64,000 nucleotides of DNA from Aggregicoccus sp. 17bor-14 (GTDB lineage: Bacteria; Myxococcota; Myxococcia; Myxococcales; Myxococcaceae): positions 62,001 through 126,000 of the forward strand of contig NZ_VJZZ01000014.1 of the NCBI RefSeq assembly GCF_009659535.1, read 5' to 3'. How positions within the stretch are numbered: position 1 is the stretch's first letter; every line of letters begins with the position of its first letter. A program made the translations under genes and the position numbers. Below, piece by piece: positions 31,677 to 56,891 of this stretch. The notes under the pieces were generated by a model that was not told where the DNA came from, did not search any database, and worked only from the letters and a program-made list of their open reading frames with translations.

Positions 31677-33017
31677 ATGCCCCTAAGTGCAGAGAATACC
31701 TGGGCTCTCGCCCTGGATTCGATCCGCCACGAGGGCAAGACCTACGCGCTCACCTGGCTGGAGCGGATGCGCCCGCTGGAGGTGCGCGAGAACGCGCTCG
31801 TGCTCGGCGTCCCGGACCGCTTCTTCCGCGACTGGGTGGACGACCACTACCGCGCGCTGCTCGAGGGCACGCTCGCGCGCGTCGCCGAGGGGCTGCAGCG
31901 CGTGGCCTACGAGGTGGTGGAGGTGGCGGCCGTGCCCGAGGCGCTCGTACCCGCACCGGGAGTTCAAGGCGCAGCCCGCGGCGCGCCGCTCGCGCGGCCT
32001 CCGCGGCTCAACCCGCGCTTCACCTTCTCTACCTACGTGGTGGCGGACAGCAACCAGCTGCCCGCGGCCGCCGCGGCCGCCGTGGCGGATGCGCCGGGGC
32101 GGGCCTACAACCCGCTCTTCATCTACGGCGGCACCGGCCTGGGCAAGACGCACCTCTTGCACGCGGTGGGCAACCGCGTGTTCGAGCGCGACCCGAGCGC
32201 GCGCATCGTCTACCTCTCCAGCGAGCAGTTCACGAACGAGTTCGTGGAGAGCGTGCGCGACCACCGGATGACGGACTTCCGGCGCAAGTTCCGCGAGGAG
32301 TGCGACCTGCTCCTCATCGACGACGTGCAGTTCCTCGGCAAGCGCGAGGAGACGCAGAAGGAGTTCTTCTACACCTTCAACACCCTGCACGAGATGGGCA
32401 AGGGCATCGTGCTCACCAGCGACACGGTGCCCGCGGAGATCCCAGGCCTCGAGGACCGGCTGCGCAGCCGCTTCGCGATGGGCCTCATCACGGACATCCA
32501 GGAGCCCAACTACGAGACGCGCGTCGCCATCCTCAAGAAGAAGGCCGAGGCGGACGGCTTCCGCGTCCCGGACGGGGTGTGCCACTTCATCGCCAAGAAC
32601 GTGCACAAGAACGTGCGCGAGCTGGAGGGCGCGCTCGTCAAGGTGAGCGCGGTGCACTCGCTCACGGGTCAGGCCGTCACGGAGGAGTTCGCCGCGCACG
32701 TGCTCAAGGACCTGCTGCCCGCGAACCGCCCGCTGGACGTGGAGACCATCCAGCGCGAGGTGGCCCGCTACTACCGCGTGGCCGCGGAGGCGCTGAAGGA
32801 GGACCGGCGGCACAAGGCGCTCGCCCATGCGCGCCAGGTGGCCATGTACCTGAGCCGCCGCCTCACCAAGTGCAGCTTCCCGGAGATCGGCGTGCACTTC
32901 GCCAAGGACCACTCCACCGTCATCTCCGCGGTGCGCAAGGTGGAGCGCCTGCGCGACACCGACCCCGCGGTGAAGCGCGAGCTCGACGAGCTCGAGGGCA
33001 AGCTCGGCTCGCACTGA
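31677..33017 (+). CDS. dnaA: chromosomal replication initiator DnaA
   Basis: A 446-residue initiator that binds DnaA boxes at oriC and unwinds DNA. Domain I covers residues ~5-75 (NTWALALDSIRHEGKTYALT), and the linker is short. Domain III has Walker A GGTGLGKTH near residue 151, Walker B LLLIDDVQFLG near 211 and sensor RLRSRFAMGL. Domain IV ends with the DnaA signature CSFPEIGVHFAKDHSTVISA near residue 402. The ATG at 31677 is preferred; the in-frame GTG at 31650 would add nine residues. It is transcribed away from rpmH. Confidence 0.96.
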   Translation: MPLSAENTWALALDSIRHEGKTYALTWLERMRPLEVRENALVLGVPDRFFRDWVDDHYRALLEGTLARVAEGLQRVAYEVVEVAAVPEALVPAPGVQGAARGAPLARPPRLNPRFTFSTYVVADSNQLPAAAAAAVADAPGRAYNPLFIYGGTGLGKTHLLHAVGNRVFERDPSARIVYLSSEQFTNEFVESVRDHRMTDFRRKFREECDLLLIDDVQFLGKREETQKEFFYTFNTLHEMGKGIVLTSDTVPAEIPGLEDRLRSRFAMGLITDIQEPNYETRVAILKKKAEADGFRVPDGVCHFIAKNVHKNVRELEGALVKVSAVHSLTGQAVTEEFAAHVLKDLLPANRPLDVETIQREVARYYRVAAEALKEDRRHKALAHARQVAMYLSRRLTKCSFPEIGVHFAKDHSTVISAVRKVERLRDTDPAVKRELDELEGKLGSH

Positions 33018-54964: not shown

Positions 54965-55906
54965 TCATTCCCCGGGCGCACAGGCGGGAGCGGGCTTCGG
55001 CGCGGGCTCCAGGTTCGCCGCCGCCGCGCCGAGGAACACCAGCACCGCGCCGGCCGCCTGCCGCCAGCCGAGCTGCTCTCCCAGTACGGCCGTCCCCAGA
55101 CACACCGCGATCATCGTGTCCGCAAGCGGGATGACGCCGATGGCCACCATCGACACGCGCTTGAGCAGCCAGAAGAGGCACAGGAAGGTCGCCACCGTGC
55201 CGAAGGCCGCGAGGTACAGGAGGCACCCCACCGCCTTGAGGCTGAAGTGCGCGGGCGCGTGCGGCTGGAAGACCCCGTGCAGCGAGAGCAGCAGCAGCCC
55301 GCCCACCAGCGTCTGCACCCACAGGTTCACCGCGGGCGTGACGTCGGCGAGCCGCTTCTTCTGCAGCACGTTGCCGAAGGCCGACACCATCGCGGAGAGC
55401 ACCACCAGCAGCGCCACCGGCGGCACGCCGCCGCGGCCCACGTCCCCGCCGGAGGCGAGCGCGCGCAGCGCCGGCGCCTCGAGCACCAGGATGCCGCCCA
55501 CCCCCAGCGCCGTGGCCACGCCCTTGCGCACGGAGAGCGGCTCCGCGGGCAGGAGCGCGTGCGCGAAGAGCGCCGCCCAGATGGGGTAGGTGGAGAACAG
55601 CACCGCGGCGAGCCCCGAGTCGAGGTGCCCCTGCGCATAGAAGGTGAGCGCGTAGCTCAAGCCCAGCTGCAGCGCGCCCATCATCACGATGTTGCGCCAT
55701 GTGGCGCGCGAATGGTGCCGCAGCGGCTCGCGCAGCGCGAGCGGGGTGAGCATCGCGAACGCGATGAGCATGCGCACCCCGCCGAAGAGGAAGGGGGGCA
55801 GCTCGGTGAGCCCCAGCTTGATCACGAGCCAGGTGGAGCCCCAGAGCAGGCAGCACGTCGCGTACACGAGCAGGGTCTTGGTGCGCATGGAGAGCGCGCG
55901 CCCCAT
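54965..55906 (-). CDS. EamA/DMT-family transporter
   Basis: A 313-residue inner-membrane protein of the drug/metabolite transporter superfamily with about ten helices in two EamA repeats. The first has LLWGSTWLVIKLGLTELPPF and FYAQGHLDSGLAAVLFSTYP; the second has VNLWVQTLVGGLLLLSLHGV and VIPLADTMIAVCLGTAVLGE. The final AAGAVLVFLGAAAANL is typical. Cargo unknown. The ATG at 55906 was chosen; another is at 55888. Its upstream region is the origin-like segment 55931-56191. Confidence 0.88.
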   Translation of the reverse strand: MGRALSMRTKTLLVYATCCLLWGSTWLVIKLGLTELPPFLFGGVRMLIAFAMLTPLALREPLRHHSRATWRNIVMMGALQLGLSYALTFYAQGHLDSGLAAVLFSTYPIWAALFAHALLPAEPLSVRKGVATALGVGGILVLEAPALRALASGGDVGRGGVPPVALLVVLSAMVSAFGNVLQKKRLADVTPAVNLWVQTLVGGLLLLSLHGVFQPHAPAHFSLKAVGCLLYLAAFGTVATFLCLFWLLKRVSMVAIGVIPLADTMIAVCLGTAVLGEQLGWRQAAGAVLVFLGAAAANLEPAPKPAPACAPGE

Positions 55907-55930
55907 ATCACTGCAGGCCTGTAGCCCGCC

Positions 55931-56191
55931 TCCACACAGGGCTGTGGATTGGGTGTGGATGGCGGGCCTGCGGCTGTGGAGAGGCCGGGGGCGCATCCCA
56001 CCCCTGTGGACCCGTGGGGAGAACGCCTCGGTTGCCCACATGTAGCAGCTGCGGGATTGCCGTGGTGCGGCGCGGCCTTGCAGAGTTGTCCCCAACTCCG
56101 GCGCCTCTACTTTCACCACGGATCAATAAAGAAGATATTTCCCTTTGGGGAGAAGCACGCAGCGCTGTGGGCTCAGCTGGCCTGTGGATCC
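55931..56191. other. origin-like region: DnaA-box-like array plus AT-rich segment
   Basis: TGTGGA occurs at 55943, 55954, 55975, 56005 and 56183 on the plus strand, and TCCACA at 55931. The first three are TGTGGATTG, TGTGGATGG and TGTGGAGAG (consensus TGTGNATAA, the complement of TTATNCACA). The first four are spaced 11, 21 and 30 nt apart, close to whole helical turns. TTGTCCCCA is at 56086. The segment around 56122-56145 (CAATAAAGAAGATATTTCCC) is strikingly AT-rich. This pattern fits a DnaA-box cluster beside a DNA unwinding element. It is about 24 kb from dnaA. No box is a perfect consensus, so this remains a candidate. Confidence 0.45.
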
Positions 56192-56490
56192 TCGTCCGCG
56201 CTTCGCGGCTCCAGGCGCGCGAGCAGCCCGCTCAGCCGCTCGCGCAGCTGCGCATCCTGGGCCTCGAGGTCCAGGCGCGCCTGCTCCGGGCGCCCGTCCA
56301 TCAGCCCCTGCGCCTGCATGCGCTGCAGCACGCGGCGGCGCTGGTTGCGGGCCGTGAGCAGCGCCATCGCCTGCTCCACCTCGGCCGCGAGCGCAGCTCC
56401 CGCCGTCGGGTGACGCTCGAGCCCCACGCGCAGCCGCTCGATGAGCTCGCTGAGCTGGACATCGACCTCGTAGTCCACGGAGCGCGACAT
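56173..56490 (-). CDS. small helical hypothetical protein
   Basis: A 105-residue protein, almost wholly alpha-helical and rich in Leu, Arg, Glu and Ala (LSELIERLRVGLERHPTAGA, ARNQRRRVLQRMQAQGLMDG). It could form a coiled coil. No signal, no cysteines. The ATG at 56490 (MSRSVDYEVDVQ) begins the likely protein. Its 3' end overlaps the last TGTGGA motif of the origin-like region. Function unknown. Confidence 0.55.
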   Translation of the reverse strand: MSRSVDYEVDVQLSELIERLRVGLERHPTAGAALAAEVEQAMALLTARNQRRRVLQRMQAQGLMDGRPEQARLDLEAQDAQLRERLSGLLARLEPRSADEDPQAS

Positions 56491-56549: not shown

Positions 56550-56891
56550 CTACAGCGCCCCGGCCCGCTCCCAGGCGGCCTGGGCGCTCTCCTGGACGAC
56601 GAGCGCAGGGGCGGAGGGGGTGGAGGCGGCTGCCGTCGCGAAGGCCGCGCGCAGGGCCACCAGGGTGAGCCGCGCGTGCACCGGGTCGCGCTCGAGCTCG
56701 GCCTGCAGCCCGCTCACCTGGAGCGGCTCGAGGTGGGGCGTGGTGGCGCCGGACGCCGCCGGCTGCATCGCCCGCTCGAAGAGCGCCGCGAGCAGCGCCG
56801 TGCGCGCTTCCTCGGGAAGGGCGTCCAGCGCGGGCTGCAGCTCCTCCGGGATGCGCACACGGTAGGCCTGCGGAAGGGTCTCGCTCGTCAT
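56550..56891 (-). CDS. hypothetical protein
   Basis: A 113-residue soluble protein (TSETLPQAYRVRIPEELQPA). The central part is helical (EEARTALLAALFERAMQPAA), and the C-terminus is Ala/Ser/Pro-rich. The start YRVRIPEELQPALDALPEEAR resembles the N-termini of small DNA-binding antitoxin-like proteins, but no ribbon-helix-helix or toxin partner can be shown. The ATG at 56891 was chosen. It lies 60 nt upstream of the previous small gene on the same strand. Confidence 0.5.
   Translation of the reverse strand: MTSETLPQAYRVRIPEELQPALDALPEEARTALLAALFERAMQPAASGATTPHLEPLQVSGLQAELERDPVHARLTLVALRAAFATAAASTPSAPALVVQESAQAAWERAGAL

Follow-up and report, generated by a model that had tools for sequence, protein, structure and literature searches.

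Gene content and motif cluster of the locus

The window analysed here is a 64-kb stretch of the Aggregicoccus sp. 17bor-14 genome (G000, 38 contigs), spanning positions 62001-126000 of contig C14, with a GC content of 73%. The dnaA gene (31677..33017, + strand) was identified by its PF00308 and PF08299 domains. It ends 22.9 kb before a cluster of DnaA-box-like motifs, found in or beside the gap at 55907-56172. On the left, the gap is bordered by a gene for an EamA-family transporter (54965..55906, - strand; PF00892, E 7e-44). On the right, two small proteins are encoded on the - strand (56173..56490 and 56550..56891). Neither had a Pfam match; by eye, the first was similar to the right neighbour of the corresponding element in genome G070, and the second to that in G040.

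The core motif TGTGGA (TCCACA on the - strand) was found five times on the + strand. Four copies, here called boxes 1 to 4, lie at 55943..55948, 55954..55959, 55975..55980 and 56005..56010, so that their starts are separated by steps of 11, 21 and 30 nt. The fifth, distal copy (56183..56188) lies past an AT-rich run, within the 3' end of the first small gene. TCCACA begins at 55931, and an opposed DnaA box, TTGTCCCCA, occupies 56086..56094 (+ strand). All of these positions and steps were as described in an earlier note on this DNA. Two members of the set did not hold up in full as parts of a conserved element: the TCCACA at 55931 was not conserved in the alignment with relatives, and the distal copy, inside a gene, had a counterpart in 16 of the 32 aligned sequences.

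The triplets CTA CTT (56107..56112, + strand) follow the opposed box after 12 nt and resemble DnaA-trios in the BUS layout (PMC8287927). Further downstream is the AT-rich run GATCAATAAAGAAGATATTT (56121..56140, + strand), a candidate unwinding element and the kind of adjacent AT-rich segment looked for in an oriC. At 80% AT, this 20-mer equals the maximum of the window, in agreement with its earlier description as rare there.

The density of the motifs was compared with 300 first-order Markov shuffles of the window, and by this test the DnaA-box cluster was beyond chance. Five TGTGGA/TCCACA copies (both strands) fell within 75 nt and six within 255 nt, versus shuffle maxima of three and four, respectively. 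Among the 6-mers that occur less than 60 times in the window, only TGTGGA/TCCACA reached five within 75 nt. The triple TGTGGA cluster was unique in the 6.92-Mb genome. The rpmH-dnaA gap had been noted before as free of such boxes, and indeed no box with a CCACA core was found there; its best matches, TGATCCAGA and TTCTCCGCA, were both poor.

Conservation in the Myxococcaceae

The element was aligned across 32 Myxococcaceae loci. Boxes were found at relative positions 0, 11, 32 or 33, and 62 or 63, the step to box 3 being 22 nt instead of 21 in genera g8 and g11. The loci had been collected with boxes 1 to 3 as a requirement, and the conservation of these boxes is partly the result of this selection. 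The block CCCACATGTAGC (56035..56046, + strand) and everything after it were absent from the collecting patterns. This block was invariant in 32/32 sequences, and the longer CCCACATGTAGCA was present in 31/32. An opposed box of the form TT[GTAC]TCC[AC]CA followed CCCACATGTAGC after 39 nt in all 32 loci, as TTTTCCACA, TTCTCCACA, TTATCCCCA or TTTTCCCCA in the relatives. A GATC was located 26-31 nt past the opposed box in 32/32, together with AT-rich DNA, and the whole conserved plan spans about 200 bp. Boxes 2 and 3 were separated by an additional box in some g39 sequences, and G022 had a shifted box between boxes 3 and 4, its fourth box being changed. CCCACATGTAGC has no known binding protein, and it might be bound by another origin factor.

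For counting, a strict pattern was used, consisting of a box followed by CCCACATGTAGC. It had one match per genome in 44 of the 145 genomes of the order, from eight genera, all of them Myxococcaceae, and the reversed control had no match in the 145 genomes. The earlier note had named a lack of conserved motifs and spacing in related species as a refutation. Its claim survived this check, family genomes having a single copy each of the 11/21(22)/30 plan with its downstream blocks. A loosely spaced triple TGTGGA was detected in 84 of 96 family genomes. Some of these matches were simple or coding repeats, and the reversed loose pattern also matched many genomes.

The left neighbour of the element varies between genera, while the element stays. 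In the relatives inspected, the EamA transporter gene was replaced by other genes at this place, and it was rejected as a synteny handle, its homologues not adjoining the element. In G000, G022 and G070, a gene that by eye resembles glutathione synthetase was located 2-6 kb left of the element, and small genes lie to the right of the element.

Position relative to dnaA and parS

In all 14 family genomes in which both were mapped, the element was downstream of dnaA and on the same strand, as is the predicted Myxococcus oriC of the DoriC type. The distance between the two ranged from about 20 to 147 kb. Four perfect parS cores, TTCCACGTGGAA (12-mer), were located at G000:C14:53242-53866, 64 kb upstream of the element. 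The order parS, mnmG/rsmG, dnaA, putative oriC was kept in G000, G007, G022, G040 and G070, where all four were mapped. The putative origin and dnaA have drifted apart in the Myxococcaceae with this order retained in those genomes. In M. xanthus, parAB has been placed about 35 kb from oriC (PMC3899335). The number of parS sites varied, with four 12-mer cores in G000, whereas the relatives searched had between 1 and 31 copies of the 14-mer.

GC skew

The two g15 genomes, G070 and G071, had a skew switch at the element. With a resolution of 1 kb, the raw change-point fell at an offset of +813 bp (G070) and +552 bp (G071) relative to the element, and this was matched in 0 of 1000 block permutations. 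Corrected skew, that is third-position skew adjusted for gene strand, placed the switch between -3.9 and +5.8 kb of the element in G070 and between -2.7 and +3.1 kb in G071. These switches were 148 and 97 kb from dnaA, respectively, and in G070 a switch at dnaA fitted 12 log units worse. In G022 (genus g23), the raw change-point was +282 bp from the element; corrected skew allowed both dnaA and the element, without distinguishing them.

Genus g8 gave a different picture. The switch was 133 kb (G007) and 106 kb (G040) from the element, beside parS and the mnmG-rsmG gap. A switch placed at mnmG-rsmG fitted better than one at the element by about 20 log units, although both genomes carry the element intact. 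On contig C1 of both genomes, the interval from mnmG-rsmG to the element formed a domain of its own, in which A exceeded T on the plus strand.

Cumulative GC skew had been named earlier as a check on an origin at this site. It came out in favour in the two g15 genomes and was compatible in the g23 genome; it pointed elsewhere in the two g8 genomes, and the 168-kb draft contig of Aggregicoccus sp. 17bor-14 gave no skew signal. G044 had no significant switch in part of its region. In a dnaA tree, Aggregicoccus sp. 17bor-14 was placed with g15, g23 and g39 and not with g8 (support 85/86), a moderate support in a tree with two very long outgroup branches. This groups the species with genera whose skew supports the element, and the placement was counted in favour of an oriC.

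A second DnaA-box site between mnmG and rsmG

To the left of the window, near parS, a second site was found between rsmG (PF02527) and mnmG (PF01134), at G000:C14:58156-58248 (L167:18156-18248). It consists of TTATCCACA, TTGCCCACA and TTGTCCACA, which are 73 and 11 nt apart. TTATCCACA is the only perfect DnaA box in the contig. The pattern TTATCCACA-N(56-76)-CCACANNTTGTCCACA had one match per genome in 28 of the 96 family genomes, from six genera, and its reversed control had none in the 96. In G070, the mnmG-rsmG boxes were located at 5,572,780; another window with three boxes in that genome, at 5,653,302, was set aside as lying within a predicted gene.

Both conserved sites may act as origins, or together as one bipartite origin, with a preference that depends on the lineage: g15, and probably Aggregicoccus sp. 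17bor-14, would use the element, and g8 would use mnmG-rsmG. We regard this as possible, if rather doubtful. In its favour are the recurrence of the second site once per genome and the switch near it in G007 and G040, with log gains of 33.1 and 30.7 over no switch. An inversion of the interval between parS and the element in g8 was rejected as the cause of that switch, since its genes follow the same order as in G022. However, the tested sample comprises two g8 species, the second site yielded no unwinding element, and its boxes in G040 are about 2 kb outside the switch interval. Furthermore, G070 had no switch at the second site, and skew is a record of history rather than of present use. Tentatively, then, the Myxococcaceae might keep two DnaA-box sites 60 to 250 kb apart, between which lineages would have switched their main origin without rearranging the genes in between. 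This overlaps with an origin at the element described here, which could serve as such in Aggregicoccus sp. 17bor-14 and g15 even if g8 uses the other site. The find thereby hints at an origin switch in a single genus, which can be put to the test.

Comparison with known origins

For Myxococcus hansupus, oriC has been predicted at 8,613,829-8,614,077, with dnaA at 8,645,240-8,646,592 (PMC4765838). According to that publication, this oriC is similar to the DoriC entries ORI92210206 (M. xanthus) and ORI94030396 (M. fulvus). Our genome G082 had the element at 8,614,038-8,614,075 and dnaA at 8,645,249-8,646,556, both on the - strand. These positions match the published ones, from which we infer that G082 is M. 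hansupus. The published interval begins at box 1, is about 250 bp long, and lies about 31 kb from dnaA, in the same orientation to it as here. The two cases differ in the species and in the distance, which is 22.9 kb in Aggregicoccus, and the published prediction is computational too. The likeness to the Myxococcus oriC is based on the M. hansupus coordinates and the alignment with the g23 genomes. No experimental mapping of a Myxococcus origin was found in the literature searched, which was mostly without subscription papers. An origin at this element has already been predicted computationally in Myxococcus, and the find is solid rather than new, save for the hint of an origin elsewhere in g8.

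The arrangement downstream of the four boxes resembles the BUS-type origin of Bacillus subtilis (PMC6669920, PMC8287927), with a DnaA box, a 12-nt spacer, lower-strand triplets with a central A, and AT-rich DNA. Unlike the published search, which demands a minimum of three consecutive trios, the window has two. In a module test allowing a DnaA box with at most 2 mismatches, a spacer of 0-16 nt and at least three trios, the window fell short: TTGTCCCCA, with 2 mismatches, and the 12-nt spacer were within these limits, but only CTA CTT follow. At least three central-T triplets were present 12 nt past the opposed box in 21 of the 32 aligned sequences, which passed.

A myxobacterial origin away from dnaA has also been described for Sorangium cellulosum. 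Its predicted oriC adjoins dnaN and is nearly 2 Mb from dnaA, as cited in the review PMC8538405. By this description, it differs from the present element in the far larger distance and in the neighbouring gene.

Predicted origin and alternative explanations

Judged from sequence, the chromosomal replication origin (oriC) of Aggregicoccus sp. 17bor-14 very probably corresponds to the element at about 55943-56140. The earlier note had offered an oriC or a DnaA-titration site. The first option is the better supported, by the motifs and their spacing, by a plan conserved in a single copy per genome, and by the skew switch at the element in the two g15 relatives.

At such an origin, DnaA would load on the four near-helically spaced boxes and on TTGTCCCCA, the opposed box, and a DnaA filament starting at the latter would extend across the short spacer onto the trio-like triplets. 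The filament may then open the AT-rich run, where the helicase would be loaded and from which two forks would leave. The steps after recognition are modelled on work in B. subtilis and on general knowledge of oriC. DnaA binding, unwinding at the AT-rich run and the use of the origin in Aggregicoccus sp. 17bor-14 are thus expected by analogy.

The second option of the earlier note was a titration or regulatory site of the datA or DARS kind, at which the boxes would set the level of free DnaA while replication starts elsewhere in all species. The distance between dnaA and the element would fit such a role, as would the g8 switch away from the element. However, it leaves the G070 and G071 switches, which lie at the element, unaccounted for, and it does not need an AT-rich run and trio-like triplets after the opposed box. 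The published oriC prediction also coincides with the element. We consider titration alone, with a start elsewhere in all species, quite unlikely. The most improbable reading is that the element belongs to a neighbouring gene, as a conserved control region or an RNA leader; it is suggested by the position just upstream of the EamA transporter start (55906, - strand). Against it, the left neighbour changes between genera while the element stays, an Rfam search gave nothing near a gathering score, and the skew switch would be left unexplained.

An oriC at the element would fix the likely origin in a family where dnaA is easily assumed to be its site, which matters for work on replication and segregation. 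It would also illustrate clearly how an origin can drift 20 to 147 kb away from dnaA while the order is maintained.

Outside the family, a near-identical spacing of four TGTGGA motifs was observed in cyanobacteria, Poribacteria and actinobacteria (loci L065-L108). These matches were often within dense TGTGGA arrays that look origin-like.
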